IMG/VR virus record: IMGVR_UViG_3300020159_001932
Location: 62,001-126,000 of that record
From: a virus
Strand: one strand, 5' to 3'
DNA: 64,000 nucleotides
The notes beneath the pieces were generated by a model. It had not been told where the DNA came from and did not search any database. It saw only the letters and a program-made list of their open reading frames with translations. Below, one piece after another: positions 6,101 through 52,897 of the stretch. The position numbers and the translations under genes are program-made. Numbering within the stretch: position 1 is the first letter of the stretch; the number at the start of each line of letters is the position of its first letter.

Positions 6101-9100
6101 ATTAAATCTGTCCACCCATTTGTTTTTCCATTTAAGATGGTTAATATATTTCCAAATTCAGAACGAATTGTATCAATTTCTGCAGATGATGCATAGTTAC
6201 TAGATGTTGTTTGTATTCCATTGGTGTATCTAGTTATCCCCACTAGTGCATCTGTTGCTGTTGTAATATTTTGAACAACTTTAACACTTAGATCCCGTAG
6301 ATAGGTAATGGCATTAATTGTTGGGCCAAGCTGTTCTTTAATGGCACCAACATAATTTCCTTGATTGAAATATTGTATTCCTGAAAATGTTGCCTGAGAA
6401 TTAGTTGGTGTTGGAAATAACAAATCTGTAGCAATACTGTCAATGATAATACCTGTGTCCCTACGACATTTAATTTGATTATATGGAAGAGACTTTGGAG
6501 GATCGCATAAAAAGTAATTAATATGTTTAATAACACTTTCTTGTATAAAACTTCTGTTTGCTTGTAATAACACCTCTGCACTTACAAATGCGGCATCAGG
6601 ACCGGGTCCTTTAAATAATTCAGGTGCTGCATCTGGGCCATTTAATATTATATCTGTTGTAATATTGAATAACTTTTTAATCGAGGAGGTTGTTATTTCT
6701 CCGCCGGTTAGTACAGTATTAATAACTTGTGTACCTACAGGAATATTTGCCGGTGGTACTAAGATTGGGCACGTATCGTTTTGTACAATTAACTGCGATA
6801 GATAACTTATGTAATCAATAGCACCTATAGTCTGAACTTCTTGGCCGGCAATTACACTAGTTACACCTCTATAGTATGCTTTTCCGCTTTCAATACTTTT
6901 TTCGTTGCCACCAAATGCCATATCGTAGGCCATGTTTTCTACGAGTATTCCTGCATCTCTATAGCATAGCTGTCTGTTATAATTAAAAGTGTTCAATGTT
7001 TGATTTAAAAAGGCAATTACTTCAGACTGAATAAAAGTTCTGTTAGCCATTAAGATATCATAAGAATTTAAAACTCCAGTTGATGTATTTGTAGCTAAAT
7101 TAATTGGCACACGTTCGCCTACAACAGACGGACCATTACGAATAATATTAGTAATTGTATCAATGTTATGTTGTAATGTTTCAATTTCAAAATTTGTGCC
7201 TGCGTTATATCCAACATATACCTGAGGAACACTAAGTTGGTAAGGACTTAGAATTTGATCTCCTCTTACAATCGACGGTACAATACTCTTAATAAAATTG
7301 TAAGCAGCAGTAGTAGCAGGAATTTCATTTGGAGATCCTAGAGTAGATGTACTATTATTATCGTAATAATATACACCACTCTTTATACTTTGTAAATTTC
7401 CGCCATGTAGTAAATCATAGGCCACACTTTCTAAAATATATCCTACATCTCTACGACACTTGGTCTGACTATAACCGTATACAAATGTATCGTTGATATA
7501 TGCAATAAGTTCAGATTGTATAAATGCTCGGTTGGCATGTATAATTGCAGCAGCATTTCTTACATTTTCAGAACTTGATTCTGCTAACCCTAATGGAGTT
7601 TTTTCTTCAACAACACCTGGGCCGCCTGAAATAATACTTGTAATGTAATCAATATTACCTTGTGCAACTAGTGCTTCTTGAATTGTTCCAGGTGTAACAC
7701 TACTAGTATCTTGAGGAGTTGCGCCAAACGGTGCTGGTACTTCGATGCCCTGCACTACATAATATAATAATTCTTTTAAGTAATTGTAGGCCGCTGTAGT
7801 TTGTACAGTTTGACCAGATATTGCGGTATTGCCTGTATATCCGTAATAATAGACTCCACTTTGTACAGCTTGCCTATTTCCTCCGTATAACAAATCAATA
7901 CTAATCGAGTCTAGCATGTAACCAACATCTCTTGCACATTTTTCTTGGTCGTAGACAAACCCAAGAGTCTTTGTCGATTCAACAAATGCAATAACTTCTG
8001 CTTTTAAATAATTTCTATTTGCTTGTAACAAATTGTAAGCATTTATTACATTGGTAATTGTACTTGCAGTTAGAGAATTAGGAACAATTATATCAGTTAC
8101 ACCTGCTGTGCCGGATGACAAAATATTTGTTATTACAGAAAAATCTGTAGATAAAGTTGTTGCCTCAGCAGATGTGGCAGCAGGCAAAGATATATTTTGT
8201 GTTACTGTGCTTTGATATCTTAACCCTGTTACATCATTTTGCACAATTTTTTGTGCAAGACTATTTAAATAATTAATTGCATTTGTGGTTGTAGTAATCT
8301 CGCTACCAATTGTTCCAACATAGTTGTCTTGGTTCCAATATTGAATACCTGCAAATGCTGACTGACTTCTTCCGCCAAATAATACGTCTTGTGCAACAGC
8401 ATCAACAATTAGTCCTGTATCTCTACTACACTTGGCCTGGTCGTATGAATAAAGAGGAACCAAGTTATTAGAATCAATGTAATTAATAGTATTATCTTTA
8501 ATTGTCTCAATATTTGAAATTATTGCATTGTAGGCAGCTACGGTATTAACGTTAGTACTTGGTAATCCATTTGAAATTACTTGATCTGTTACACCTACTG
8601 TACCTGTATTTAAAATTCCAAGAATTATATCAAAGTTATTTCCAACTATTGTACCTTGGCCAGCACCACCAGCGCCGGTCGCTAATGTTACTGCTGAATT
8701 TTTAACAAATGTAATAGCTGCAATGGTTGCAGTAATTTCATTTGGAATATCTCCAGTATATGTACCTTGATTCCAATATTGTAATCCAGCAAATGTGCTA
8801 TCGCTGGTACTATCTTGCAACATATCTTGTGCAATAGCATCAACAATTAATCCTGTGTCCCTGTAACACTTAATTTGATTATATGAAAAAGATCCGCTAT
8901 TAAATGTTGCATCAACCCAGGCAACTGTCTGGCTTTGAATAAATGGTTTATTTGCTAGTAACAAAGTTCTAGCATTAAAAAACCCTTGTGTTTGTTTACC
9001 AGCATTAATACTTTGACCAATACTAATAGAGCCCGATTGTACATTTACAACAATACTAGCAGTATTTGATCCCCAAGAACTTAAACCTATTGCTAAAGGA

Positions 9101-14936: not shown

Positions 14937-15944
14937 TTAACTATTTTGCGGTAAGAATTGACGCTTTGTAGCTGGATCAATACTTGTCTGACCAGCTTTG
15001 TCACCTGTACCAGCACCTACTGGGCCTGGACCGGAACCTTTCTTCTCAGCACCGTGACCGCCGGCAACTTTGCTTAATGTCTTAACGCCAGACTTTTTAC
15101 CGTCAACGTTTTGTAGACCACTAGCAAACTTTTCACCAGACTCAGGGTTAATACCCTTCATGTGCTTGGCTGGGCTTGTACCTGTGTTAGTACCAGCGGC
15201 TGTTTTTTGGTCGCCTAGAATGTTGTGTGCTGTTGCACCAGTTGTTGGCTTACCTTTGCCAGAACTGATTGGGCTTCTTGTGTTAGTACCGGAAGGCATT
15301 GCGTCACCAGTATTTGCACCAGCGATACCACCTTCGGCAGCACCTCGCTTATCAGCACCGTGACCGTCACTTACTTTTTCACTGTACTCACGTAAACGGC
15401 GACCTTCAAATGCTGGTTTACCCATCATTTCGTCTCCGCCCATTTCGTCATCACCAGCTGAAAACTCGTCGTCTCCATCTGCACCACCGCCTTGTGCTTG
15501 CTCTAATTCAGCAAACGCGGCTTCTAATTCTTGAATAGCATTCTTGATATCAAAAATTGCTTTGTCTTCTTGGTCTTCGGGTTCTTCTTCATCACCCATA
15601 TCGCCCATTCCAACATCACTGCCTAGATCGTCTGTGGCATCACCACCTAGATCATCTTCTTCGTCGTCACCGTCCATCATGTAAGAATCTTCTAGATCCA
15701 TACTTTCGTCGGCTTCTTCGTCAGCAGATTCGTCCATTTCCTCTTCGTCGGATTCGGCGGACTCTTCCATTTCTTCTTCATCGGACTCTTCAGATTCGTC
15801 CATTTCTTCCTCATCTTCTTCTGCGATAAGGTTTTCGTAAATTTCTCTAGACTTCTCAACAACGATTTCGTGGAAAAGTTCATTGGCTTTATCCATTTCT
15901 TCGTTTACAAGTAAGTCCAACAATTGTTCAAATTTGGTAGACAT
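14937..15944 (-). CDS. Acidic prohead core protein (gp67-like position)
   Basis: A 335-residue protein in three parts. The first ~35 residues form an amphipathic helix (FEQLLDLLVNEEMDKANELF). Residues ~40-160 are extremely acidic, with repeated DEEEMDES-type units. The rest is a Gly/Lys/Thr-rich tail containing two related DGHGADKRG/GGHGAEKKG motifs. T4 encodes the acidic core protein gp67 between portal and protease; position, acidity and N-terminal helix match, but this protein is far longer than gp67 (80 aa). It probably belongs to the scaffold core; homology to gp67 is tentative. It is preceded by a hairpin-rich 183-nt leader. Confidence 0.6.
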   Translation of the reverse strand: MSTKFEQLLDLLVNEEMDKANELFHEIVVEKSREIYENLIAEEDEEEMDESEESDEEEMEESAESDEEEMDESADEEADESMDLEDSYMMDGDDEEDDLGGDATDDLGSDVGMGDMGDEEEPEDQEDKAIFDIKNAIQELEAAFAELEQAQGGGADGDDEFSAGDDEMGGDEMMGKPAFEGRRLREYSEKVSDGHGADKRGAAEGGIAGANTGDAMPSGTNTRSPISSGKGKPTTGATAHNILGDQKTAAGTNTGTSPAKHMKGINPESGEKFASGLQNVDGKKSGVKTLSKVAGGHGAEKKGSGPGPVGAGTGDKAGQTSIDPATKRQFLPQNS

Positions 15945-18130: not shown

Positions 18131-20602
18131 TTAGGCAAATAAATTGCCATTTAATCCTTTAGTAGCATCAATATTTCTCTTAGTATTGTCAGCAGTGTCC
18201 TTCATATACTTAAGAATTTCTTTCATTGTAGTATTTAATGTTGTTAACTCTAAACTACTTTTTTCCTGGCCGCCTGTATTGCTAGAAACTAACCTAGCTG
18301 TAGCCGCTCCTACATCCTTTATTGCCGAGCCAATTCCTTCTAATACACCAGGACCTTTCATTACTTCTTTTAGTCTTTCTGCTTTGGCAATATCAACTGT
18401 GTTTACAGCTTTACCAAATGCTACAATACCATTTGAATAAGAATTTAATGCTGGTCCAATTTGAGCCAACTGAGGTAGTAGCGGACTTAACTCTGTTATA
18501 GAATCTTTGATTGCAGCAATTGGGCCACCGCCAGAGAAGAAATTAGTAATCTTAGCACCAATTGCTCCTAGACCAGCAACTACACTACCCGCAGTAAATG
18601 CTACCATAGCTATACCAAGTGCGCCAATGCCGGCAGCTACAGCAATCAAATTGACTCCATCTATGTTTGCAATTTCTGTTAAACCTTTGGCAAATACTGG
18701 CAAACTTAAACCAATTAATGCTATAGCGGCTGCAATGCCTGCACCTAACAAAGCAATTACACCTGCAACTGCGCCTGCGCCGATTAACATAGGAACAGCA
18801 ATAGGTGCAAGACTTGCTAGTCCCCTACCTAATGCTTTGATAAATCCAACAAACCCTCCGCCACCTGCGCCACCTGCAGCGCCACCTGCGCCGCCCAATG
18901 GACCCATTGGTGGAGTTGGTGCTCCGCCACCACCCATTAATCTTCCAGCACCACCAAGTACCGCACCGGCAGCGCCGCCGACTGCTCCTGCTCCACTTCT
19001 TAATATTGCCGCAGCATTGGCCATACGCTGTGCCGCAAGCCAGGCTACAAGAGCAACTACAATACCTTTGACAACTGTACCAGCAGTTCCGAATTGTTCA
19101 AAAAATAAATTGAATTTTTTAAGACCTTCTGCAAGGAACCCAGCTAATGATCCCATCCAACTAGCCACTTTGGACACTGCTGTTAATAAAGGACTAAACA
19201 CATTCCATAGTTCTGCGCCAAGTTCTTTAAATCCTCGCATAGCTTCACTCATGTCGTTGGCTTCTGACTCTTCACGTGCTTTGCGCTTTTCTTCAATAGC
19301 AGCCCTTTGTTTTTCAACATCCTCCATGGTTTCAATACCTTGCTGTGCATTTCTATTTGCTGTTCCAAAAATTGCACCCATGGTACCACTGAATGAACCG
19401 CCCTGCATAATAAGAGCTTTACCAGTATCACCTAAATCTTTCTTTGTTTGGTTTGCAGCTAGTCCTAGTTCGCCACCAGCACGTTTAACATCTGCAACAC
19501 CTTTACTAGCATCACCAACTGCATCAGCCATCTTTCTATTAGCAGCAGCCATCTTTGGTGCTACTGCTTCAAACTCTTGTGCGGCCTTGGTAATAGGTGG
19601 CAATCCTAACAAGCGACTCTGCAATGCTTCTGTTGCACCTTTACCGCCTTTGGCCATAGCTTCTGCCATGGCTATTTGTGCTTTTTCCCTGCCTTTTTCA
19701 TCTAAGGTTAATAGATAAGCCTGATAGGCTTGGTTAGCACTAGCTTCTTTAAGTGCTTGTTCTTGTTGTTCTCTGCTCTTTCCTGTTATTTGTGCAAGTT
19801 CGTCTAACTCGTTTAGATAATTTCCTGCGGCAGCACTCAATGCCTTGGTATCTTTCATTTCCTGTGCATTACGTCCACCAGTCATTGCAATATAATTTGC
19901 AAGTCCGCTGTTGACATCTGCCGTGGTATAACCTAGCGCCATTAGTTCTTTACCAACTGGACTTTGAATTAATTCTTTGCCTACCGCACTAAATGCTCGA
20001 GCACCTTCGTCTGCGGTTCCGCCCATTTTGGCAAATGCCTCACCATTATCTTTCATCACCTTAGAAAATTCTTCTAAAGTAAGATAACTGTTGGCAGCTG
20101 CCATTCTCATCTGTGTAAGACTACCACTAAAGTTAATACCAGATGCTGATAACTTTTGATATATAGCAAAATTTTCTTCCTGGAATGCCATTAATCTAGA
20201 CATTCCAGAAATTAATATTCCTACAGTTCCACTAAACTGTTGACCAATTCCTGCTAAAAGAGCACTCGATGTTTGGGTGCCATTCATCAAACTTAGAATA
20301 CTTTGATTTAATAAATTAAATCTGTTTTGTGTAGCTTGGGCCGACTGAAGTATTTGTTCTCTAGCACGATCGCGAGCTTCTCGTTCGCGTTGTATTGCAG
20401 CAGTATCTTCTTCAACTGCGGCAGTAGCGGCAGCAATAGTTGCAGGATCAACACCAGCAGCCCCAGCAATACCGGCAGCGCCAGAGACAGATCCGCCATT
20501 AGCTTTTACAGCTTCTAATAATTTTAAGAGCGTGGCTTCGCTGGCGGCGTTGTTTAATAAAACATTTTCCGAACCAATTTGTCCTGTTACTTGTTCTGCC
20601 AT
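18131..20602 (-). CDS. Probable tail tape-measure protein
   Basis: An 823-residue protein. The N-terminal half is helical and Ala/Gln/Glu-rich with long charged stretches. A hydrophobic helix lies at about 505-525 and a second strongly hydrophobic Ala/Gly/Ile region at about 585-690. The region 530-580 is Gly/Pro-rich. Long helices plus internal hydrophobic segments are characteristic of tape-measure proteins, which set tail length and enter the host membrane. The gp26-like gene with a frameshift signal starts 85 nt away on the other strand, which supports a tail-assembly role. T4 gp29 (590 aa) would be the counterpart, but I cannot show homology. Confidence 0.6.
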   Translation of the reverse strand: MAEQVTGQIGSENVLLNNAASEATLLKLLEAVKANGGSVSGAAGIAGAAGVDPATIAAATAAVEEDTAAIQREREARDRAREQILQSAQATQNRFNLLNQSILSLMNGTQTSSALLAGIGQQFSGTVGILISGMSRLMAFQEENFAIYQKLSASGINFSGSLTQMRMAAANSYLTLEEFSKVMKDNGEAFAKMGGTADEGARAFSAVGKELIQSPVGKELMALGYTTADVNSGLANYIAMTGGRNAQEMKDTKALSAAAGNYLNELDELAQITGKSREQQEQALKEASANQAYQAYLLTLDEKGREKAQIAMAEAMAKGGKGATEALQSRLLGLPPITKAAQEFEAVAPKMAAANRKMADAVGDASKGVADVKRAGGELGLAANQTKKDLGDTGKALIMQGGSFSGTMGAIFGTANRNAQQGIETMEDVEKQRAAIEEKRKAREESEANDMSEAMRGFKELGAELWNVFSPLLTAVSKVASWMGSLAGFLAEGLKKFNLFFEQFGTAGTVVKGIVVALVAWLAAQRMANAAAILRSGAGAVGGAAGAVLGGAGRLMGGGGAPTPPMGPLGGAGGAAGGAGGGGFVGFIKALGRGLASLAPIAVPMLIGAGAVAGVIALLGAGIAAAIALIGLSLPVFAKGLTEIANIDGVNLIAVAAGIGALGIAMVAFTAGSVVAGLGAIGAKITNFFSGGGPIAAIKDSITELSPLLPQLAQIGPALNSYSNGIVAFGKAVNTVDIAKAERLKEVMKGPGVLEGIGSAIKDVGAATARLVSSNTGGQEKSSLELTTLNTTMKEILKYMKDTADNTKRNIDATKGLNGNLFA

Positions 20603-20687: not shown

Positions 20688-21545
20688 ATGAATTCAAGTC
20701 CAAATCCACTGAGCATGTTTATGCGGCAGCCAAAAATTTACATTAAACTACCCAGCGGAGGTGAGTTTTGGCCTGATGGTACTTTAGATATTCCTGAAAA
20801 TGGAGAATTTCCTGTTTATTCAATGACGGCAAAAGACGAACTAATGCTGAAAGTTCCAGATGCGTTAATGAACGGACAGGCCATAGTTGATGTAATTCAG
20901 CATTGTGTACCAAATATTAAAAACGCATGGGCAACTCCTACTATTGATTTAGACGTGATACTAATTGCAATTAGATTGGCTACCTATGGCGAAATGATGA
21001 CTACTCCTGTTAAATTTACCGATACCTTAGAATTAGAATATCAACTTGATCTTCGAATCGTAATGGATCAACTTATGTCTCAGATTGGGTGGGATCCGGT
21101 TGTGCCTGTTAACGACCATTTAACAATTTTTGTTAGGCCGTTAACATACAAACAACTTAGTTTTGCAGCATTACAGACATTTGAAACTCAAAAAATTATG
21201 CAGGTTGTTAACGACGAAAAAACATCCGAAGAACAAAAAATAAAATTATTCAAAGAAAGTTTTAAGAAATTATCCGATGCAACATTGGGTACCATTGGAG
21301 ACAGTATATCTAGTATTGAAAGCGTTGGCGGTAGTACAGACAATCCTGAACATATCAAAGAGTTTGTAGAAAACATTGACAAAGAAATCTTTAATAAAGT
21401 ACAAAAACATTTAGAAATGTTACGAGATAGAAATACTGTAAAACCAATGATTATACAAGTAACTGATGAAATGCGTGAGCAAGGAGTAACAGGAGATACT
21501 GTTGAAGTTCCTATTACATTCGATCCATCAACTTTTTTCGTATAA
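20688..21545 (+). CDS. 26: Baseplate hub / tail-assembly protein, gp26-like
   Basis: A 285-residue protein with the T4-type baseplate family pattern: LPSGGEFWPDGTL near the N-terminus, YSMTAKDELMLKVPDALMNG, then IDLDVILIAIRLATYGE. These match the family of T4 gp26, needed for hub assembly. The C-terminal third is helical and charged. The last codons, ACT TTT TTC GTA TAA, contain a slippery heptamer that would move ribosomes into the -1 frame and fuse the protein to the next ORF. Together with the adjacent tape-measure candidate, this makes it a probable tail-assembly chaperone analogue. The 0-frame product and a 359-residue fusion are both expected. Confidence 0.75.
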   Translation: MNSSPNPLSMFMRQPKIYIKLPSGGEFWPDGTLDIPENGEFPVYSMTAKDELMLKVPDALMNGQAIVDVIQHCVPNIKNAWATPTIDLDVILIAIRLATYGEMMTTPVKFTDTLELEYQLDLRIVMDQLMSQIGWDPVVPVNDHLTIFVRPLTYKQLSFAALQTFETQKIMQVVNDEKTSEEQKIKLFKESFKKLSDATLGTIGDSISSIESVGGSTDNPEHIKEFVENIDKEIFNKVQKHLEMLRDRNTVKPMIIQVTDEMREQGVTGDTVEVPITFDPSTFFV

Positions 21546-21616
21546 GGCTTTTGACACTAGACATTGAAGGCATCAATGCTTTAGTTTCAGATTACGATCA
21601 AGAGTCAAAAGCCTTA
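21533..21616 (+). promoter_or_regulatory. Programmed -1 frameshift signal
   Basis: T TTT TTC at 21533-21539 is in the correct register of the gp26-like frame for a -1 slip. Three nt later starts a perfect 13-bp inverted repeat: 21543-21555 (TAAGGCTTTTGAC) pairs with 21604-21616 (GTCAAAAGCCTTA). The loop contains a nested CATTGA/TCAATG hairpin. The -1 frame stays open through the junction into the 71-residue ORF, which has no ATG. Confidence 0.75.
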
Positions 21617-21766
21617 AAAGATGAAATTTTTAAAATTTGTTGGTATATGAGAGGTACCCCTATTTCAGAAGGGTACTTACTTTCTTTTGAAGATAGACAG
21701 ATTATTGCAAAAATTATTGAAAAGAATTTAGAAATAACAAAAGAAAGTGGATTACCGTTCTTTTAA
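21539..21766 (+). CDS. -1 frame extension of the gp26-like gene (gp51-like position)
   Basis: A short ORF whose only usual initiator is a TTG at 21551 buried inside the 13-bp stem. Entered by -1 frameshifting at 21539 it adds 75 residues (RIRLLTLDIEGINALVSDYD...). The body is acidic and helical with a KICWYMRGTP motif and ends in ESGLPFF. Aquatic T4-like phages carry a similar small protein beside gp26; its lack of a good start fits expression as a fusion. In T4 the hub-assembly factor gp51 cooperates with gp26; equivalence is inferred from position only. It overlaps the convergent gene's stop by four bases. Confidence 0.7.
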   Translation, partial: RIRLLTLDIEGINALVSDYDQESKALKDEIFKICWYMRGTPISEGYLLSFEDRQIIAKIIEKNLEITKESGLPFF

Positions 21767-25369: not shown

Positions 25370-25798
25370 CTAAATTTTAGATTTTATGTGGGAGCCATGT
25401 ACACGGACTTGTATATGTCCGTTATAATAATCATCAGATTCTAATACTTTTTGGGTAAATTGTTCTCGAGCCTCTATATAACTGCATTCAGCCTTTGATT
25501 TACAATAAAAAAGTATTTCTCTTTTGAAATTTTCTTTGCCTAGTGATGTGATATCTGCTGTTAAGTTAGGACTGGACCCGTAATATTCCTGCCAGTCGCT
25601 GTCGATTTTGCTTCGAATCTTCTTTTTCTTTTTTGTGCCGTTCTTTAACTTTACAGTCTTGTAGGTCGTTTTACTAAATTTTGCTAACTTTTTGCCTATG
25701 TATTTTTTATTATTGATTAAATTTGTAATGATGTAGACAAATCCTACGCAATCATCTGGTAGTTGTTTAACTTCTTCATTGTTGTATGTCCACGTCAT
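25370..25798 (-). CDS. GIY-YIG nuclease (Seg-like)
   Basis: A 142-residue protein with the GIY-YIG motif: VGFVYIITNLINNKKYIGKK at about 18-37, a basic Lys-rich loop, SDWQEYYGSS near 70, a FKREIL strand-helix block near 93, and a Glu in YIEAREQ near 107, the usual metal-binding position. Only the catalytic domain is present, without an evident DNA-binding tail. T4 Seg endonucleases are free-standing members of this family; similar genes occur in aquatic T4-like phages. It begins 23 nt inside the 3' end of the next gene and is followed by the hairpin-rich region. Homing activity is not proven. Confidence 0.8.
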   Translation of the reverse strand: MTWTYNNEEVKQLPDDCVGFVYIITNLINNKKYIGKKLAKFSKTTYKTVKLKNGTKKKKKIRSKIDSDWQEYYGSSPNLTADITSLGKENFKREILFYCKSKAECSYIEAREQFTQKVLESDDYYNGHIQVRVHGSHIKSKI

Positions 25799-40975: not shown

Positions 40976-43900
40976 ATGGCAACAAATAAAATTAATTCAG
41001 TAACATTATTACCAGAGTTTCTACGCACAGAAAGAAATTCTAAATTCTTATCAAGTACAATTGATCAGTTAATTCAGCCGCCCCAATTAGAACGTATTAA
41101 TGGTTATGTAGGGTCTACCCAGACTCCTACATATAATTCTACAGCAGATATCTATCTCTCAAATGGCACACCATATCAATTAGATCCAGCATTAATATTG
41201 AGAGACAATCTTAATAATATAACTGATACTCAAGGATATGATGATCTTATCAACGAAATTTCTGTTAAAGGTGGCTATACAAATAATTTAGATAGACTAT
41301 TTAGATCCGAGGTACTATCCTATAATCCTCACATTGATTGGGATAAGCTAGTAAATTATCAGAATTATTTTTGGGTGCCTGAAGGACCTGAGTTAATTGA
41401 TATTGTTTCAGGCACATCTACAGTAATAAATCAAGTATCGGCAACAGTTGAAGTTTTAACGCCAACAGGAACAACATCTACTATTTTATCCAATGGTATG
41501 CTTGTATGTTTTAATAGTCCAAGTGACCCTGAAGAATTTTATGATAAAACATTTTATGTAGAAGGTGTAGGATCTTCAATTAAATTAGTACCTTTTAAAC
41601 CTCTATTAGTATCTGAGAGCTTTTTAAACACCTACCCTGATGGGTGGGATTCTCATGAGTTTGATAATTTCCCTTTTGACAACGATAGAGAAATTCCAAT
41701 AATTCCTGAGTACGTGACTATTAATAGGGCAAGTAACGATTCAAATTCGTGGTCTAGATATAATAGATGGGTGCATAAAGATGTTATTAGACTAAGTGCC
41801 CAGATAAACGGTCGAGCGCCAACATATATTAGCAAGGCTCGAGCACAACGACCTATCGTTGAATTTGTACCTAATATTAAACTTCTTAATTTTGGATCAA
41901 TTGGAATTGAGCCAGTTGATATTTTTGATAAAGAAATAGAAGATATTTCTACCATTAATAATTCTACGTCAACAATATATCTTGACGGTATTGAACTTGA
42001 AGAAGGTCATAGAATTATTTTTTCTGTTGCTGAAGATCCTGCTGTGGTAGGAAAAATCTATGAGGTAAAATTTGTCAATGTAGGATCTACAAGAAGACTA
42101 ACATTAATTCCTTCGTATGACACCACTCCGCCAACAGATGCTACTGTTGTTGTATTGTTAGGAGTTGAAAATAACGGCACAGAGTGGTGGTATAATGGAA
42201 TTGAGTGGGTGTATGGTCAGCAAAGAATTTCTATTAATCAGGCACCTTTATTTGATTTGTATGACGTTGAAGAAAATAGTTACGGCAATAAAGATTTTTA
42301 TCTAAGCGATTTTGCAGGAAATAAAATTTTTAGTTATGCTATTGGCACAGGAACACCGGATCCTTATCTAGGGTTTCCAATCAAATATAAAAATTCAACG
42401 GTAATTGGCGGAATTGTTTTTGAAAATAATCTTTCAACGGATTCAATTGTATTGTCTCAACTTGGAGAGTCAACATACACTATTTTATCAAATGTAGGGT
42501 ATGTTAAAATTGGAAATGAATTCAAAAATGCGTGGGTAAATGCGGTTGAATATCCAATTCCTGTACTTAGTTCTACGGCCACTGGCTTTACAAACTACTA
42601 TGAAGAACCTCTAAGTTTAACAAATAATCCATTAAATGGAGTAATATCTGAATTTACAATTAGTGAATTAACTGATCATGTTGACTCTATGGTCAAGCGT
42701 ATGCAATCAGAAATAGCATACGATCCATTGACTAATAAATTAAGAGATCAAGCAGATTATACAAAATACGGTATAAAGTTAATATCTAATATTAATCCAA
42801 TCTCTTTTGCTCAAATGTTTGTTGGCAAGAAAGAACATAGCGTTGTTGATTCCATTATTAAATCTGCAAACAAGTATAATAAATTTAAATTATCATTTTT
42901 AAATGGATTGAATTCTGTAACAGAACAATTAACCCCGGCTGCTGCTGTAGATGAAATTTTGTTAAATTTGAATAAGAGTACAACAGGACAGGCTCCTTAT
43001 TACTATTCCGATATGTTGCCATATGGGACAGCCGAGGTCAATAAAGTATGGACAGTTACCAATCCTACAAACGTATTGTTTCCTTTACTATCTGAATTTG
43101 ATTTGACTACTTTAAGTACAACATCTGTGTTGGTATACTTAAATGGCCTTCAGTTGATTCATGGTATTGATTATGTTTTTAATAAAATAGAATCTACAGT
43201 TGAGTTATTGGTAGAACTTTCTATTGATGATGTAGTACTAGTTAAAGAGTTTCAAGACACTACCGCTTGTTACGTTCCTCCTACTCCTACAAAATTAGGA
43301 TTATACCCAAAGTATATTCCTAGCATTTATTACGACGATACCTATGCATCAGGATCTGTTAAAGTTATTCAAGGGCATGATGGTAGTATAACACTTGCCT
43401 ACAATGATTATAGAGATGCTATAATTTTAGAATTAGAAAAAAGAATTTTTAATAATATAAAGTCTGAATACAGGCCTGAGTTATTAGACATCAACAGTGT
43501 AATCCCTGGAATATTTAGAGAGACAGAATATAATATACACGAAGTTAATGGTATCTTAGAAAGCGACTTTGTAAGATGGTCTACAGAATATGTAATTGAT
43601 TATGCAGATAACCAATATTTTGATCCAGACGATTCAAGAACATGGAACTTTGCCGAAACATATAATTCCTTTCTGGATGAAAAATTATTTGGATCATGGA
43701 GACTGATTTTTAAACAGTTCTATGATACTGATCGCCCTCATACACACCCTTGGGAAATGATAGGGTATTCAATCAAACCAGATTGGTGGGAAGGCACCTA
43801 CGGTCAGGCTCCTTACACATCAAGTAATGTTGTGTGGGCAGATATGGAAATGGGTTATGATACTAACTCTGATACTATTAATGACAAATATGCACGCCCT

Positions 43901-46900
43901 GGATTGAGCAATGTATTGCCAGTTGATAGTTTTGGAAACTTAATTGATCCTACTGTTTTAATTTCTGGAATTACAGATTCAAATAAAAGAAGACCGTGGC
44001 AAGTAGGAGATTTAGGTCCTGCAGAAACAGCTTGGAGACGTAGTAGTTATTATCCTTTTGCTGTTCAAAGGTTATTAGCACTGACAAAGCCTGCGTCGTA
44101 TTCTTCATTGATGTTTGATGTTAGCCGTGTTAAGAAAAATATTTCTAATCAATGGGTCTACGGCAACGACGAAACATTTTTAAAATTTAAGAATTTATAT
44201 ATCAACGGTGAAAATAATAATTTAACCAGCGGGTATAGCGTATTTGTTTCAGAGACTGGTGAGCAGAGATCTGTTGATTATTTAAAAACACTTCGACAAG
44301 ATTTATCCTATGCATCTTACAATCTATTTTTTAAGGTAGGCGGATTTATTGATAAAGATAGCATACAAGTTATCATTGATGCGTATGCTCCTTCGAGTAC
44401 AAGTCCCGGGGCTATACTGCCGACCCAAAATTATCAATTGAGACTGAATTCAGGCAATCCTATAAAATCTATAGGCATTACTGGATTAATAATTCAAAAA
44501 GTTAATAACGAATATGTTATAAAAGGATATGATACTCAGCACCCGTTCTTTACATGTTTAACCCCAATAAGAAATTTAAACACTACATCGTTTACAGTTG
44601 GAGGAGAAACTGAATCTTATGTTGTATGGGAAGAAAGTGGCACACGTGGTGCAACTGGCCTATCGGCACAAGATACAATATCTGCTAGTGCTGCTCCAAC
44701 AGGCAACTTCTATCAGAAAGGTCAGAATGTATTTTATGGAAATAATTTTTATAAAGTAACAGTTGCACATCGGGCAGGTAGTTCTTTTAATCCTGCGTAT
44801 TTTCAACTACTTCCTAAGATTCCTACAATAGGAGGTGTTACTGTTCAAACAGCAGCATCCTTTAATAAAACTGAAACATTGATACCCTACGGTGTATCTT
44901 ATTCAAATGTACAGGATGTGTATGATCTAATTATTGGATACGGACAATGGTTAACAAAGCAAGGATTTATATTTGACGATTACAATGAAGACCTTGAATC
45001 TGTAATGGATTGGTCAATGACCGCCAAAGAATTTTTATACTGGACAACACAAAACTGGGCGTCAGGTAGTATTATTACACTTAGTCCGTTTGCCGATCGA
45101 CTAGTTTATAAATCTACAGATTCTGTAGTTAACAATGTATTTGACGAGTTTTATGACTATAGTATTTTGCGGGCTGATGGAACTCCATTCCCAAAAGAAA
45201 GTTTATCAATATCTCGACTTGACGGTACTTGCTTAATTTCGACATTTCCTAATACAGACGGAATTTACAATGCTAGATTAAATCTTGTTAGAAAAGAACA
45301 TGCTATAATTTTTGATAATGAAACAATCTTTGGTGACACAGTTTATAATGTTGAAACAGGCGACCGTCAACGAAGAATTAAATTAGTTGGTTTTAGAACC
45401 GCAGGGTGGAACGGCGACTATTTTAGTCCAGGATTTGTTTATGATACTGCTATTGTAAAAGAATGGGAAAGATATCAATCTTATAATGCAGGCAGCACAG
45501 TTCGATTTGGTGGCAATTATTATTCTGCATTAAAAAATGTACCAGGGTCAGATAAATTTGAATTTACAAAATGGAATTTATTAAGAAATAAACCAACATC
45601 AGGACTACTTCCAAACTTTGATTATAAAATTAAACAGTTTGAAGATTTCTATAGTACAGATTCTGACAACTTTGATGAAGCTCAACAGCAATTATCTCAG
45701 CATCTTGTTGGATATACACCTCGCGTATATTTTAATAATGTGTTCAGTGATCCAATTGCACAATTTAAATTTTATCAAGGCTACATTAAAGACAAAGGTT
45801 CCAATTTAGCAATTTCAAAATTATCAAAAGCATCTCTAGAGACACTTAAAGGAGACATTAGTTATAATGAAGAATGGGCGTTTAGGGTTGGAAATTTTGG
45901 ATCTTTCCCTACCTACGAAGAAATAGAATTTCCATTAGTTGAAGGAACATTTAGAGAAAATCCTCAAATTATACATTTTGTAAATAGTGTTCCAAACAAC
46001 TCAGAAAATACATTATTAAATTATGTTGTTCCGAGCAATCTAACAATTTCTCCTAATAACTACAATTCTGAAAATACATTTTTAACAACATCTACGGATC
46101 TAAAACTATTATTGCATTCTGGTTATGTTAGAATAGACGATGTAACAGCTACAGCATACAACGAAAATAGTTTATTAGATATTGCAAATAGTAATCAACT
46201 AAAAGATGGTAATACTATATGGTTAGGATTTAAGGAAGACGGAGGCTGGGATGTATTTAGATATACCTATGTTCCTGCGGCAATAATCGGAGTTTATGTA
46301 AGTGCCCCTGTAGAGGATATTACGTTCACTACACAATACCCTCATGGATTATCTATTGGAGAACTCATAGGTGTAAATCAGTTTAATGAACAAGTTAATG
46401 GGATTTACAGAGTTAAGGCAATTCCTAGTGCAAAACAATTTACTGTTGCAAGTATGCTTTCTTCAATTGAAAATGCTCCGTTAGAATCTCCCGGTCAGTT
46501 ATTTGTTTTTTCTAGCGTAAGATTTTCTGATTTTGATGTACTACCAAGCGACAAGGTGATCAATAGATTACCTTACGGAACAAAATTTTGGGTTGATGCA
46601 ACCGAGGCACATGGATGGGAAGTTTATCAAAAGACTGACAACTACAATTCTACATCTTATTTTAATGCCGGCCTTCCACTTGCACCTGGTCTAGGAAAAA
46701 GTATAAGCAAGAGAAAAGGCAGCGACATCGTTGTAGTAGGAGCTCCTAATAACTATAGGGGAACACAATACGGTGTTGTATGGGTATACGACAAAACAGA
46801 AACAGGCGAATTAAAACCTGTTGTTAGATATCGACTTGGCGGAGAATTTAGCGATCAACTAACTGGGTTTGGTAATGTTATTGTTTATGATGATTTTACT

Positions 46901-49900
46901 TTTACAAGTTCTACGTATGGTCTAGTTTTTGTTGGAGCTCCTTTGGCGTACTCGTTACAGGGCGTTGTTAAAGTTAGTTCAATAAATTCTAAAATACTTA
47001 CAGAAGGTACTAGTACCTACATTAGTAGCCCCGACACGACACTGACTAACTTTGGATCTAGTATTTTTGTAGAAAGAAATACTTCTACTAAAACAGTGTT
47101 AGTTGGTGCGGACAATGCAGTATATTCCTACGTTGTAAAAGATTTGAATGGTACTATATCTGTATCCCAGCCAAACAGATTACTATCTACTTCTACATAT
47201 TCTATAAGTGGAGCCGATAATGGTTCTTATATAGCAATAGGCGGAAAGCAAAAAGTCTACATCTTTAACAAGGCGCTAAACTTAATTGATACACTAACAT
47301 CTAGGTACGCTAGTTTTGGAAAAACTGTAGCCATGTCTCAAAATGGAGACTATCTATTTGTTAGTATACCAGAAATTATAAATGTAGATGAATCTCTTGG
47401 GCAGGTACTAGTATATAAAAATATAAACGGAAAATTTATATACAATCAAACATTAGAAAATCCTGTCCAAGGATTGGGAATGACCTTTGGAAAAGCCATG
47501 GATATTACTGTCAATGCAGATACATTAGTAATATCTGCATTAGGAGTTAACCATACATTCCCTACTACCTTTGATAAAGGTACTACAATATTTGATGCCG
47601 GGGTTACAGACTTCACAGGAACAGAAGCAAACTCTGGTGCAGTATATGTGTACTGTAGAGAAAATGAACGGTTTATATTGAGCCAGGAAGTAACCGATCC
47701 GTTTGTCTCACAAAATTATGGAACTAACTACGGCACAAGCATTGTTGTTGACGACAACTCGGTTCTTGTTGGTTGTCCTTCCTTGGACAATCCAAATATT
47801 AAATCTGGGTTCTTTAAATTTGATAAAATTGATACAACAACATGTAGCCTTAAAAAAATAAGATATCAAGAAGATCAAGTTGATTTAGCCCCTGTACAAA
47901 AAATAGTTTTAATTGATACAGAAAAAGAGCAGGTTATTGACTATCTTGATGTTGTTGATCCTTTAAAAGGACGTATTGCAGGAATTGCAGAACAAGAATT
48001 AACATATAAGTTAATAAATGATCCTGCAATATATTCTATTGGCATAGCAGGTGTTAACGTAGACACCGCTAAAAACTGGATGGACGAAAAAGTTGGAGAG
48101 TTGTGGTGGGATCTAAGTACCGCAAAGTACATTTGGTATGAACAAAGCACTCTTGATTATAGAAAAAACAACTGGGGTCGATTATTCCCGGGTGCAACAA
48201 TTGATGTCTACGAATGGGTTAGAACACCGTTACTACCAACAGAATGGTCTGCTATTGCAGATACTCCAGCAGGATTAACAAGTAATGTTAGTGGACAGCC
48301 AAAATTTGCAGATAATAGTGTAATTTCAGTAAAGCAAATTTATGATAATGTAACAAATAGTTTTAGTAATGTCTATTACTATTGGGTTAAGAATAAAGTC
48401 TTAGTTCCCGATGTTGCAGGCAGAAGAATTAGTTGCTACGAGGTAGGGTCAATTATTGCTGATCCTACAGCCTATGGATTAAAATTTGCATCTATAATTT
48501 CTAAAGATGCAGTATCATTGAGTAATATAGGTTCTATTCCAGTTGATGATAAAATCAGTTTAAATATTTCTAGAAATCTATCAGTTAATAGTCTAACTCC
48601 GTTAAAACATACTGAGTGGTTATTATTGCAAGAAAACTCTGCTAATAATATGCCTCCAATGTTACTAGAAAAGAAAATGATAGACAGTATACTAGGCCAT
48701 GACAGAGATGGCAGAGTAGTGCCTGATATATTCTTAACAGACAGAACAAAGTACGGTATTGGAGTCCGACCTCAACAAACAATGTTTAAAAACAGAGTTG
48801 AGGCATTGCGAAATGTAGTTGAATTTGCAAATAGTATCTTAATCACTGAACCTATTACTGGTAATTATAGTTTTAAAAATTTAAACAAACAAGAAGAAAT
48901 TCCTGATCGCTTTACAAATGAATACGACGATGTTGTTGAAGACAACAGCATGTTAGAAGATATTAATACATCTACATTTGTCCGTGCTATCATTAATTGC
49001 ACAGTGAGTGGGTCTGGCGAAATTAGTGATGTATCTATTGCAAATCCAGGAGCAGGGTACGGTACTTTAAACCCTGTTTATAGTTCATCTGGAACATTAA
49101 TAGGTTACCAAGGACCTACCTTTACAGACTTTAATTATGATACCTTATTCGATAGCGGTACCACAACATTTAATATTGGAGGGGCTACCTCATTTTTAGG
49201 AAGTTTGCCAAGCCCATATGGAAAAGATCTAAAAATTACCACAGTGGTAAACGAGCAAGGTAGTATAATTTCTGCTAGTGTGCTTCATGCAGGCAAAGGT
49301 TACAAGTATGGATTTAAATTAATTGCTAGACCACATACAATCATAGTAGAAAGTGATGATACATACAACGGTAAGTGGACTCGCTATGAATTTGATTACA
49401 TAACATACAAGTGGAATAGAGCACATACACAAAGTTTCAATACCACATTATATTGGGACTATGTAGATTGGGTGTCAACTGAATACAATAAATTTAAAGT
49501 GTATTCTTCAGTTATAGGAAGTCCTTATGAACTATCTGAATTAGATTCAGCCGAGGGTGAATATGTTAAGATTAATAACTCCGGAGATGGTAGATACATT
49601 GTAATAGAAAAAGGACCAAACGATATTGAAGGTACTTACGGTAATGGATATAATTTAGTTTACAAAGAAAAAGGAACTGTTCAGATTAAAAATAGTATCT
49701 GGGACACATCAAATAGTAATCTCAACTGGGATAAAGGAAACACCTATGATGAAACATTATGGGACCAAACACCCGACCTTGAAATACAATATATATTTGA
49801 TGCGTTAAAGTACGATATCTTTATTAATAAACTAAAGGTAAACTGGAATTTATTATTCTTTACGTCTGTAAGATATGCATTAACCGAACAAAAGATATTG

Positions 49901-52897
49901 GATTGGGCATTTAAAACTTCTTTTATTACAGTTGTAAACAATGCAGGAAACCTAGGACAGCCTCCTGTTTATAAGATTCAAGATAGTATTCACTATGAAA
50001 ATTATATCAATGAGGTCAAGCCATACCATACACAAGTTAGAAATTTTGTAACAAATCACTCTATACTCGAACCTAGTAACACTGAAGTCAGCGAACTTGA
50101 TAGGACTGCTTCGATTAAATTAAAATTTGACAGAATTACATCTGTACAAGAAACTGAAGATTTTGTTGTTAATGATTTGTTTGTTGCAAGTGGTGTTGAT
50201 AACGAATTCATATTAAGTTGGGTTCCTGATGCTAACAAATTAAAAATTACTGTTAAGATTGACAAGATTCGTGTGTTGAGTAGCAAATACACCATTGTTT
50301 ATTATTCAGAACCTTTTAACGGATATAATAAAAAGTTTGCAAAATTAGTATTTTTAGATGAACTTCCTATAGATGCAAATAAAGTTATATCTATTGAATA
50401 TAAGAAAAGTGCTGAAGTATTAAATGCAACAGACCGAGTATTAAGTTATTATACCGCTACTAGTGGAATGGTAGGACTCGATCTAGGGATGTTAATGTAC
50501 GGTATTGATTACCCCGGTCCTCGTATAGGGGGACAGTACGAGGGCATTGGATTTACTACTCCTTATGGTGGTACATACCCGTCAAGCTACATTTCTGCTG
50601 GAACTTGGACCAATGGAATATTAAGTACGGCACTTGGTATCAATCCTGAAGAAAGAATAATTGATGGTGGCATTGGATTCTTGTCTCCTTCATCTGGGTT
50701 TGCTCCAGAAGAAGTTGTTCCTGGATTTGCTATTGATAGCCTAGGAATTAGTGTATATACACAAGGTCCTGCTCCAGCCCCAACGGTATACAGTGAAAAC
50801 TTTTCACTAACCAGCGGCAACGGTCTTTTAAGATATCCACTTCCTATATTGCCTCCTACTATAGCAAGCATGACTGTTATTTTTAATGGTGTTTACTTTA
50901 ACTATACCGAAGGATTATTGAACCCTGGAACGTCTGTGTATTCTATAGATTGGGAAAATCTAGAATTATTAGTTCCTGATCAAGATGTCAGCGGAGATGT
51001 GGGATACACTATCATTGGTGTTGGCGGCAGCGAAACTAATGTAGGATTAATTGACTATGAAGTTAATTATACATCTAATACTTCTACAGCAGTAGTAGAG
51101 AGTTTTATTGCTTACAATGTTGTGCAAGACGCCTTTGTATCTGTTAATGGAACAGCAATAACTACATCTACTTCAGTTTATTATGATTTGACATATGACA
51201 ATGTAACTGGAAAAGCTGTTGTAACGGTTCGTAATCTTACCAATTATCAAAATGCAATACAGGTATGGTTCTTTGGAGAAACAAAGGATCTGTTTAATAA
51301 AGTAAGAGATCAAAGTTTTGTTTACAACGGATCTACAACTACATTTACTTTGTTGTATCCTCCTGAAATTGAAGGGCCTGATTCAACTCATGTAATAGTT
51401 GATTTGATTTCTAATGGTGTCTCGAGAAGGTTATTACCGTCTGACGACAATTTGCCTGGAATATACGATTACATTGTAACGGATAATCAAATAACAATTT
51501 ACCCGTCAGCTAGCTTAACTGTCAATGATACAATTAAAGTAATTACATTTTCAAACCATGATAGCATGGCTATTCGTGTAGATAAATTTGTAGGAGTTCC
51601 TAATAGACGATTTGTCTTAGACCGTCCTGTTTTAAATGACAAATACATTTGGGTAACTATAAACAAGTTTAACGGAATTGGAGTACCACCGACTACAGTT
51701 GGATTAATTAACGGAATAGATTTTACTTTATTTGAAGATGATATAACCGTTCAACTTGGTGATGATTGGCCAGTAACAGTTGACGACATTGTTGAAATAA
51801 GAACAATGGTTGCTCCTACACATCCTACTAATATTCTCGGATATAGAATTTTTAATGATATGTTAGGTGGAACTACATTTACAAGATTAAGTCTTGAAAA
51901 TTCTACAAAACTAACACAAATTCTTCTTGCATCAGATGCAGAAATACATGTCGAAGATGCAAGTGTGTTTACTCCTCCGACTGTTCTTTCTAATATTCCC
52001 GGCGTTGCTCTTATCGACGGCGAAAGAATTGAGTTTTTTGAAATTGATGGAAATATTTTAAAACAACTAACACGCGGTACTATGGGTACAGGACCTGCTG
52101 ATTATGTTAATGCTGGTACACGAGTTTTTGATCAAGGTACAGAGCAAATTATTCCTAGTCCAGAAAATACGTTTATTCAAAATACGTTTACCAACACACT
52201 AACAAATGTGTATCCAATTAGTTTAGTAGATCTTGAAATTACATTCCCTGACTCCGATGACCTTGTTAGATGCGATGGAATACAGTTCTCCAGTGATGAA
52301 AGTATTTCATTGATTGATCAAGTTGAAGTGTATTATGGCGGTTACCAATTAAGAAAATCAGGAAAATACTTCCTTGATACATCTGTTTCATATGACGGTA
52401 TTGATGTAAATTCAATAGTTAATAGTGTAAGTACAGTAGATGATTTAGCAACATATGCACCTAATGTAGGAGATGCATTCTTAGTTACCTCAACAAATAA
52501 AGTATGGGTCTACACAGGAACAAGATCTGTTTCAACCTCAACAATAGGATGGATTTATTCTGGTGTAACATATCTTCCACCAGAATTTTCAATTACTACT
52601 TCTAGTGGAACTAACCTATTAGTATTAAATACTGCAACAATTGATATTGTAGATGGTATTCAAGTTACACTAATAAAGAAAGATACAACAGTTGAAGACT
52701 CTTGGAATACAGTTATTTCCACAGGAACAACATTATCATTAATTGATAGTACAACACCGGTTGCTGAATTCTTAAAAACTTCGCCAACAATATTACCAAA
52801 AGAATATTTTAATCAAAGTCAAGATAACGTTCTTAGAAATGAATCTGGACAACCGTTGCTCGATGAAGCAAGTAAAATTTTAACAGGAAATTTTTAA
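40976..52897 (+). CDS. Giant 3973-aa baseplate/tail protein with beta-propeller-like region
   Basis: A single 11.9-kb frame. The N-terminus (TLLPEFLRTERNSKFLSSTI; DQLIQPPQLERINGYVGS) and a later KPYHTQVRNF motif (about residue 3010) resemble large structural proteins found after gp6 in aquatic T4-like phages. Residues ~1900-2290 show repeated VxVGAP...GxVxVY units, as in FG-GAP/integrin-alpha beta-propellers. Other parts are Tyr/Trp/Asn-rich beta sequence, with a PGAGYG motif near 2690. Position after gp6 suggests it fills the gp7/gp8-gp10 place at the baseplate rim. No signal peptide or enzyme motif is seen. Confidence 0.6.
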   Translation: MATNKINSVTLLPEFLRTERNSKFLSSTIDQLIQPPQLERINGYVGSTQTPTYNSTADIYLSNGTPYQLDPALILRDNLNNITDTQGYDDLINEISVKGGYTNNLDRLFRSEVLSYNPHIDWDKLVNYQNYFWVPEGPELIDIVSGTSTVINQVSATVEVLTPTGTTSTILSNGMLVCFNSPSDPEEFYDKTFYVEGVGSSIKLVPFKPLLVSESFLNTYPDGWDSHEFDNFPFDNDREIPIIPEYVTINRASNDSNSWSRYNRWVHKDVIRLSAQINGRAPTYISKARAQRPIVEFVPNIKLLNFGSIGIEPVDIFDKEIEDISTINNSTSTIYLDGIELEEGHRIIFSVAEDPAVVGKIYEVKFVNVGSTRRLTLIPSYDTTPPTDATVVVLLGVENNGTEWWYNGIEWVYGQQRISINQAPLFDLYDVEENSYGNKDFYLSDFAGNKIFSYAIGTGTPDPYLGFPIKYKNSTVIGGIVFENNLSTDSIVLSQLGESTYTILSNVGYVKIGNEFKNAWVNAVEYPIPVLSSTATGFTNYYEEPLSLTNNPLNGVISEFTISELTDHVDSMVKRMQSEIAYDPLTNKLRDQADYTKYGIKLISNINPISFAQMFVGKKEHSVVDSIIKSANKYNKFKLSFLNGLNSVTEQLTPAAAVDEILLNLNKSTTGQAPYYYSDMLPYGTAEVNKVWTVTNPTNVLFPLLSEFDLTTLSTTSVLVYLNGLQLIHGIDYVFNKIESTVELLVELSIDDVVLVKEFQDTTACYVPPTPTKLGLYPKYIPSIYYDDTYASGSVKVIQGHDGSITLAYNDYRDAIILELEKRIFNNIKSEYRPELLDINSVIPGIFRETEYNIHEVNGILESDFVRWSTEYVIDYADNQYFDPDDSRTWNFAETYNSFLDEKLFGSWRLIFKQFYDTDRPHTHPWEMIGYSIKPDWWEGTYGQAPYTSSNVVWADMEMGYDTNSDTINDKYARPGLSNVLPVDSFGNLIDPTVLISGITDSNKRRPWQVGDLGPAETAWRRSSYYPFAVQRLLALTKPASYSSLMFDVSRVKKNISNQWVYGNDETFLKFKNLYINGENNNLTSGYSVFVSETGEQRSVDYLKTLRQDLSYASYNLFFKVGGFIDKDSIQVIIDAYAPSSTSPGAILPTQNYQLRLNSGNPIKSIGITGLIIQKVNNEYVIKGYDTQHPFFTCLTPIRNLNTTSFTVGGETESYVVWEESGTRGATGLSAQDTISASAAPTGNFYQKGQNVFYGNNFYKVTVAHRAGSSFNPAYFQLLPKIPTIGGVTVQTAASFNKTETLIPYGVSYSNVQDVYDLIIGYGQWLTKQGFIFDDYNEDLESVMDWSMTAKEFLYWTTQNWASGSIITLSPFADRLVYKSTDSVVNNVFDEFYDYSILRADGTPFPKESLSISRLDGTCLISTFPNTDGIYNARLNLVRKEHAIIFDNETIFGDTVYNVETGDRQRRIKLVGFRTAGWNGDYFSPGFVYDTAIVKEWERYQSYNAGSTVRFGGNYYSALKNVPGSDKFEFTKWNLLRNKPTSGLLPNFDYKIKQFEDFYSTDSDNFDEAQQQLSQHLVGYTPRVYFNNVFSDPIAQFKFYQGYIKDKGSNLAISKLSKASLETLKGDISYNEEWAFRVGNFGSFPTYEEIEFPLVEGTFRENPQIIHFVNSVPNNSENTLLNYVVPSNLTISPNNYNSENTFLTTSTDLKLLLHSGYVRIDDVTATAYNENSLLDIANSNQLKDGNTIWLGFKEDGGWDVFRYTYVPAAIIGVYVSAPVEDITFTTQYPHGLSIGELIGVNQFNEQVNGIYRVKAIPSAKQFTVASMLSSIENAPLESPGQLFVFSSVRFSDFDVLPSDKVINRLPYGTKFWVDATEAHGWEVYQKTDNYNSTSYFNAGLPLAPGLGKSISKRKGSDIVVVGAPNNYRGTQYGVVWVYDKTETGELKPVVRYRLGGEFSDQLTGFGNVIVYDDFTFTSSTYGLVFVGAPLAYSLQGVVKVSSINSKILTEGTSTYISSPDTTLTNFGSSIFVERNTSTKTVLVGADNAVYSYVVKDLNGTISVSQPNRLLSTSTYSISGADNGSYIAIGGKQKVYIFNKALNLIDTLTSRYASFGKTVAMSQNGDYLFVSIPEIINVDESLGQVLVYKNINGKFIYNQTLENPVQGLGMTFGKAMDITVNADTLVISALGVNHTFPTTFDKGTTIFDAGVTDFTGTEANSGAVYVYCRENERFILSQEVTDPFVSQNYGTNYGTSIVVDDNSVLVGCPSLDNPNIKSGFFKFDKIDTTTCSLKKIRYQEDQVDLAPVQKIVLIDTEKEQVIDYLDVVDPLKGRIAGIAEQELTYKLINDPAIYSIGIAGVNVDTAKNWMDEKVGELWWDLSTAKYIWYEQSTLDYRKNNWGRLFPGATIDVYEWVRTPLLPTEWSAIADTPAGLTSNVSGQPKFADNSVISVKQIYDNVTNSFSNVYYYWVKNKVLVPDVAGRRISCYEVGSIIADPTAYGLKFASIISKDAVSLSNIGSIPVDDKISLNISRNLSVNSLTPLKHTEWLLLQENSANNMPPMLLEKKMIDSILGHDRDGRVVPDIFLTDRTKYGIGVRPQQTMFKNRVEALRNVVEFANSILITEPITGNYSFKNLNKQEEIPDRFTNEYDDVVEDNSMLEDINTSTFVRAIINCTVSGSGEISDVSIANPGAGYGTLNPVYSSSGTLIGYQGPTFTDFNYDTLFDSGTTTFNIGGATSFLGSLPSPYGKDLKITTVVNEQGSIISASVLHAGKGYKYGFKLIARPHTIIVESDDTYNGKWTRYEFDYITYKWNRAHTQSFNTTLYWDYVDWVSTEYNKFKVYSSVIGSPYELSELDSAEGEYVKINNSGDGRYIVIEKGPNDIEGTYGNGYNLVYKEKGTVQIKNSIWDTSNSNLNWDKGNTYDETLWDQTPDLEIQYIFDALKYDIFINKLKVNWNLLFFTSVRYALTEQKILDWAFKTSFITVVNNAGNLGQPPVYKIQDSIHYENYINEVKPYHTQVRNFVTNHSILEPSNTEVSELDRTASIKLKFDRITSVQETEDFVVNDLFVASGVDNEFILSWVPDANKLKITVKIDKIRVLSSKYTIVYYSEPFNGYNKKFAKLVFLDELPIDANKVISIEYKKSAEVLNATDRVLSYYTATSGMVGLDLGMLMYGIDYPGPRIGGQYEGIGFTTPYGGTYPSSYISAGTWTNGILSTALGINPEERIIDGGIGFLSPSSGFAPEEVVPGFAIDSLGISVYTQGPAPAPTVYSENFSLTSGNGLLRYPLPILPPTIASMTVIFNGVYFNYTEGLLNPGTSVYSIDWENLELLVPDQDVSGDVGYTIIGVGGSETNVGLIDYEVNYTSNTSTAVVESFIAYNVVQDAFVSVNGTAITTSTSVYYDLTYDNVTGKAVVTVRNLTNYQNAIQVWFFGETKDLFNKVRDQSFVYNGSTTTFTLLYPPEIEGPDSTHVIVDLISNGVSRRLLPSDDNLPGIYDYIVTDNQITIYPSASLTVNDTIKVITFSNHDSMAIRVDKFVGVPNRRFVLDRPVLNDKYIWVTINKFNGIGVPPTTVGLINGIDFTLFEDDITVQLGDDWPVTVDDIVEIRTMVAPTHPTNILGYRIFNDMLGGTTFTRLSLENSTKLTQILLASDAEIHVEDASVFTPPTVLSNIPGVALIDGERIEFFEIDGNILKQLTRGTMGTGPADYVNAGTRVFDQGTEQIIPSPENTFIQNTFTNTLTNVYPISLVDLEITFPDSDDLVRCDGIQFSSDESISLIDQVEVYYGGYQLRKSGKYFLDTSVSYDGIDVNSIVNSVSTVDDLATYAPNVGDAFLVTSTNKVWVYTGTRSVSTSTIGWIYSGVTYLPPEFSITTSSGTNLLVLNTATIDIVDGIQVTLIKKDTTVEDSWNTVISTGTTLSLIDSTTPVAEFLKTSPTILPKEYFNQSQDNVLRNESGQPLLDEASKILTGNF

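Follow-up and report, generated by a model that had tools for sequence, protein, structure and literature searches.

In phage lambda, one gene specifies both the tail assembly chaperone gpG and its longer form gpGT, which arises when ribosomes slip into the -1 frame near the gene end. The tail assembly chaperones (TACs) of Vandenendeviridae and Andersonviridae are likewise made as a short protein and a -1-slipped long one (PMC5009743, PMC12846349). In lambda, the N-terminal part binds the tape measure, and the C-terminal domain recruits the tail tube (PMC5009743). A 2016 review described this G-T frameshift as widely conserved in long-tailed phages, with T4 as the exception (PMC5009743).

T4 uses two genes to provide two such forms. 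Its gp26 and gp51 are both members of PF12322 and are thus paralogs with a common N-terminal part. Of the 282 positions in the profile phrog_150, gp26-type proteins fill about 1-235, whereas T4 gp51 fills 3-281, its C-terminus matching positions 227-281. The name 'baseplate hub' is historical for these proteins, and chaperone or cofactor roles have been proposed for both (PMC9024508). TAC genes of T4-like phages were identified by Vladimirov, Gautam and Davidson (2022, Virology 566:9-15; cited in PMC10885494 and PMC12846349). The title of that article argues for a mechanism other than frameshifting, and the sentence on the subject in the PRFect paper says likewise for 'some T4-like phages' (PMC10885494). 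A statement in a 2025 paper, on the other hand, credits the same authors with poly-T slip signals in T4-like TAC-N genes (PMC12846349). The 2022 title partly conflicts with frameshifting in T4-like phages, and the premise of the initial annotation that gp26-type genes had no established description must be withdrawn in light of these citations. A search of open papers found none that describes frameshifting in gp26 of RaK2-type phages or cyanophages.

The locus studied here lies in a window of 64,000 nucleotides, the whole stretch of viral DNA that was analysed (positions 62,001 to 126,000 of IMG/VR record IMGVR_UViG_3300020159_001932). Judged from its sequence, it is very probably a G/GT-type tail-assembly-chaperone gene, belonging to a large T4-like phage, with a programmed -1 frameshift that yields a 285-aa TAC-N and a 359-aa TAC-NC. 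Tail assembly chaperones made by -1 frameshifting are a kind of system that is already known. Possibly new are the wide occurrence and near invariance of the slip site, together with a clade-specific covarying stem that has a long loop.

The short product would be encoded by a gp26-like gene on the + strand (20688-21545). In profile searches, the 285-aa protein matches PF12322 (T4_baseplate; E 9.6e-11, 42.2 bits, over the curated cut-off of 24.5) and phrog_150 (baseplate hub; E 1.8e-14), and NCBIfam supplied no useful name. An AlphaFold model of the 285-aa part alone is good (pLDDT 85, pTM 0.80). In BFVD this model matches T4-like baseplate hub assembly proteins (E 4.6e-21, TM 0.83). A fold search of the PDB returned nothing significant and no known TAC structure, so the protein has no direct structural counterpart among solved TACs. 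The initial assignment as gp26-like holds, but its 'hub' label sits poorly with the roles proposed for T4 gp26 and gp51 (PMC9024508), and 'assembly chaperone' describes this protein better than 'hub subunit'. The gene is the only PF12322 member in the 132.6-kb record, which may be incomplete, and no second full-length copy of the kind that gives T4 its separate genes 26 and 51 was found there.

The 3' end of the gp26-like frame reads ACT TTT TTC GTA TAA. The slippery heptamer T_TTT_TTC (21533-21539, + strand) is in register with the zero frame, as first reported, and the zero-frame TAA (21543-21545) starts 3 nt past its end. The -1 frame is open through this junction, again as the initial annotation had stated, and runs from the slip site to a TAA at 21764-21766. 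The resulting extension (21539-21766, + strand) comprises 75 codons and the stop and would form a C-terminal 'T' domain. The predicted fusion reads 20688-21539 and then 21539-21763, giving 284 + 75 = 359 aa. The heptamer alone is not unusual, for TTTTTTC occurs 26 times in the window against 31 expected. Because it is such a common word, the case depends on context and conservation. Another three X_XXY_YYZ sites in the window also open into long -1 extensions but were set aside. The one at 52888 precedes an ATG-led open reading frame (ORF) at 52900, and those at 36408 and 22717 fall inside genes or opposite to them, in other frames.

Comparison with relatives supplies this conservation. Homologs at 52-80% identity are carried by 80 viral contigs, which together with the window and the Rhizobiales jumbo phages Phosso and Atu_ph07 make up a clade of 83 loci; compared over 95 nt, these comprise 63 unique sequences. 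The in-frame TTTTTTC is present in every one of the 83 (63 unique), including Phosso and Atu_ph07, whereas the codon use of these genes would place it at the two phenylalanines in about 7% of sequences. The stop lies 3 nt past the heptamer in 80 of the 83 loci and 12 nt past it in the other 3. A homologous -1 ORF is found in all relatives. It is 75-77 codons long except where a contig ends, and no full-length locus has a stop within it. No member of the clade has traded the heptamer for an ATG-started small ORF. Two abutting ORFs in different frames could in principle mean that one long ORF was split by gene decay or by an indel introduced in sequencing or assembly. However, the same split, site and stop spacing recur in 63 unique sequences, mostly environmental, and the split is also found in named phages that were sequenced independently. 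A split common to relatives already refutes that reading, and its probability is negligible.

The head of the small ORF bears on a different explanation, according to which it is a separate gene translated by coupled termination-reinitiation after the gp26 stop, the heptamer being incidental. Its sole possible start near the beginning, and the first in the -1 frame, is the TTG at 21551-21553 (+ strand), which was correctly described at the outset as buried in a stem. ATG codons occur in this frame only far into the T domain. The TTG is 5 nt past the stop and has a weak AAGG 3 nt upstream, and since a TTG preceded by weak AAGG is also seen in many relatives, some independent initiation may take place. 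A separate gene would further agree with Vibrio phage K452, which has TAATG in place of the heptamer, and with the cyanophages, more than half of whose loci have an ATG near the ORF head. In 9 of the 63 unique loci of the window's clade, however, no ATG, GTG or TTG is found between the preceding -1 stop and extension codon 8. The heptamer is invariant, the TTG falls within a conserved stem, and residues upstream of it (an Arg codon and RxRLL) are conserved in the -1 frame. Among 62 gap-free unique sequences, the codon that follows the slip in the -1 frame is always CGN (Arg), with column 8 of the alignment a G in 62 of 62. Column 9 varies freely (T39 C15 G7 A1; n = 62). This column is the second codon position in the zero frame and the wobble base in the -1 frame, so the -1 frame is under selection even before any start codon is reached. 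An arginine held at this place is needed by a fusion and unexplained by independent initiation. A separate gene is therefore improbable, although it is the least improbable of the alternatives to frameshifting.

The stem that contains the TTG was initially described as 13 bp (21543-21555 with 21604-21616), starting 3 nt past the heptamer and enclosing a nested CATTGA/TCAATG hairpin. Both elements are present in the window, where the stem is perfect, but the nested hairpin is specific to this sequence and missing from the consensus structure, and only 10 bp of the stem are conserved. The conserved arms occupy 21546-21555 and 21604-21613 on the + strand and enclose a 48-nt loop. The outer three pairs (21543-21545 with 21614-21616) overlap the zero-frame stop and are found in 37, 60 and 27, respectively, of 62 relatives, so the effective spacer is 6 nt rather than 3 nt. 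Bacterial -1 sites usually have spacers in a range that includes 6 nt.

Thermodynamic and comparative evidence both point to this stem. The 95-nt stretch folds at -28.5 kcal/mol, compared to -13.6 +/- 2.9 kcal/mol in shuffles (z -5.2; 0 of 200). Across the 62 gap-free unique sequences, pairs 14-81 to 20-75 are formed without exception, and pairs 21-74, 22-73 and 23-72 in 61, 54 and 56, respectively. The 10-bp stem contains 51 double-changed cells versus 13.4 +/- 2.7 in shuffles, and shifted registers contain at most 6. RNAalifold independently finds the same 10 pairs and nothing within the loop. No Rfam family matches between 21000 and 22200 at E <= 1. The long-loop stem is common to Atu_ph07 (8831-8925) and Phosso, and in Atu_ph07 a second strong hairpin fills its loop (CTAGAACCGGAGGAAATTCCGGTTCTA).

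Programmed -1 frameshift signals consist of an in-frame X_XXY_YYZ and a stimulatory structure at about 5-9 nt. Here, an invariant T_TTT_TTC is followed by the 10-bp stem 6 nt downstream, and the retention of both site and stem in relatives rules out chance. The heptamer, the -1 ORF and the covarying stem give strong comparative support to the original proposal that the 285-aa protein and the 359-aa fusion would be a G/GT-type pair. A run of T residues at the junction might instead cause RNA polymerase to add or drop a base and generate mixed mRNAs. The run is just six T, however, and is longer in no relative except Pseudomonas phage pf16, and a covarying RNA stem at 6 nt is expected for ribosomal rather than transcriptional slippage. 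Slippage of the polymerase is thus very unlikely.

The stem is strong on its own, and together with the heptamer it might serve to regulate gp26, for example through mRNA stability or translation of the operon end, leaving the -1 product without function. Against this stands the conservation of the -1 ORF at the amino-acid level through to its end, as well as its homology, by way of the cyanophages, to the C-terminus of T4 gp51. A purely regulatory role is accordingly even harder to credit than slippage of the polymerase. Variability in the loop by -1 codon position (1.07/0.76/1.67 bits) also follows a coding pattern, and the loop lies wholly inside the T-domain coding sequence.

The relationships of the T domain were traced with profile comparisons. 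The domain from the window's clade aligns to the RaK2-type extension (hhalign 93%, E 2.9e-7), and the profile of the whole fusion aligns to that of the cyanophages across the junction (hhalign 96%, E 3.6e-9). The domain alone is too diverged to be matched directly to T4 gp51 (hhalign 2%, at a different place), and on its own it matches no PHROG profile. It is the whole fusion, by way of the cyanophages, that connects this clade to T4 gp51.

Of 19 named phages, 17 have TTTTTTC at this site: Phosso, Atu_ph07, PA5oct, RaK2, XaC1, BF, GAP32, fEgEco12, Vibrio 2.275, S-PM2, S-CAM1, P-RSM4, AS-zj, phi-Grn1, Ps15, LG08 and S13. Pseudomonas phage pf16 has TTTTTTT at the site. Vibrio phage K452 is the only relative checked that has no slippery run. 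Its junction, within 2200-2260, reads CTTTTTGCGTAATGATGG, with the ATG overlapping the stop, and this arrangement suggests that coupled reinitiation has replaced the frameshift in K452. In scans started from S-PM2 and RaK2, TTTTTTC was found in all 58 unique cyanophage and RaK2-type loci. A slip site that is nearly invariant in the same gene thus spans cyanophages, jumbo phages and several Straboviridae.

Cyanophages S-PM2 and P-RSM4 resemble the window in the distance of three nt between TTTTTTC and the stop, and in the position of the -1 ORF. Their T domain is about 60 aa in length, compared with 75 aa in the window, and a tape-measure-like gene follows in tandem, whereas its candidate in the window is divergent. 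Just downstream, S-PM2 too forms a perfect hairpin, but this is a local structure with a short loop, unlike the stem with a 48-nt loop in the window. The heptamer and the -1 domain are present in Atu_ph07, Phosso, PA5oct and the RaK2/BF/GAP32 group as in the window, and in all of these jumbo phages except Atu_ph07 the neighbouring genes are likewise arranged as portal, large structural gene and gp26. Zero-frame stops of the RaK2 group are found 3-33 nt past the heptamer, the stem of this group differs, and protein identity is only 26-33%. With the TACs of lambda and of Vandenendeviridae and Andersonviridae, the locus shares its organisation, a short chaperone and a long one predicted from -1 slipping near the gene end. 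The slip sites differ, that of the Adele group being a GTTTTT motif.

These comparisons affect the annotation of many records, in which the T domain is either missed or entered as a protein of its own, 'gp51' or hypothetical, and which can be corrected to one frameshifted product. For example, ORFs of 57-60 aa in S-PM2 (21191-21364) and P-RSM4 (2223-2405) are named 'gp51, baseplate hub assembly catalyst'. The S-PM2 'gp51' is the -1 ORF. It matches phrog_634 and phrog_150 positions 239-281 in a profile search, and positions 227-281 of phrog_150 fall in it in a genome search. By their sequences, these short 'gp51' proteins appear to be only the -1 C-terminal domain of a gp26-gp51 fusion, not the counterpart of whole T4 gp51, and their names can be corrected.

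Gene counts fit such a fusion. PF12322 occurs once in each of 25 records of the frameshift or K452 type and twice only in T4, so that no second full-length gene for a long form is found in the former. One gene with a predicted -1 frameshift in the window stands in place of two in T4, and by this count T4 gp26 is the counterpart of the 285-aa protein, and T4 gp51 that of the 359-aa fusion. The T4 gp26 end (...KEFFELL) aligns with ...STFF of the window. There, the two phenylalanines of T4 are coded TTC TTT, without a heptamer, and at the matching point gp51 reads on with no change of frame. Since relatives of T4 broadly carry the slip site, the exception is T4 with its two genes and not the superfamily. 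It is about an even call whether TTTTTTC frameshifting at gp26 is ancestral to nearly the whole T4 superfamily, with the two-gene 26/51 arrangement derived, and whether the clade of the window, Atu_ph07 and Phosso has added the undescribed covarying 10-bp stem.

In operation, most ribosomes would read the gp26-like frame to its TAA and release the 285-aa TAC-N, equivalent to T4 gp26. A minority would slip back one base at T_TTT_TTC, helped by the stem 6 nt downstream, and would decode CGT-ATA-AGG-CTT and onward to complete the 359-aa TAC-NC, equivalent to T4 gp51. If the parallel with lambda gpG and gpGT holds, the short form may coat the tape-measure protein, while the C-terminal domain of the long form may recruit tail-tube subunits. 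From the features of the locus we infer that slipping occurs, at a rate that favours the short form, and that the proteins act as chaperones on these partners.

A candidate for the tape-measure protein is encoded next to the gp26-like gene by a divergently transcribed structural gene of 823 aa (18131-20602, - strand). Its product has a weak virion structural match (phrog_14121) and weak similarity to the neighbour in Phosso. Searches of Pfam, PHROG and NCBIfam gave no tape-measure profile match for this gene, and the T4 gp29 family was not found in the record. Counterparts in the same position in PA5oct (detected by mass spectrometry), RaK2 and fEgEco12 carry the annotations structural, tape-measure-like or pb2, the latter two names being those of the syntenic RaK2 and fEgEco12 genes. 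From position, it is plausible that the 823-aa gene encodes the tape measure. Chaperones of the G/GT type have their gene beside that of the tape measure, bind tape measure and tail tube, are required as both forms in a fixed ratio, and do not remain in the finished virion. In PA5oct, the neighbours of gp26 bear a mass spectrometry note and gp26 does not, a hint that gp26 is missing from the finished virion.

Other genes in the window can be described briefly. Next to the portal region is an ORF of 335 aa (14937-15944, - strand) whose N-terminal part is long, acidic and rich in E/D, and this position suggests a scaffold-like or capsid-core protein. A 3973-aa ORF occupies 40976-52897 (+ strand), with ATG-led ORFs close behind. 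Finally, a 142-aa ORF (25370-25798, - strand) contains GFVYIITN...KKYIGKK and by eye has the look of a GIY-YIG-type nuclease.
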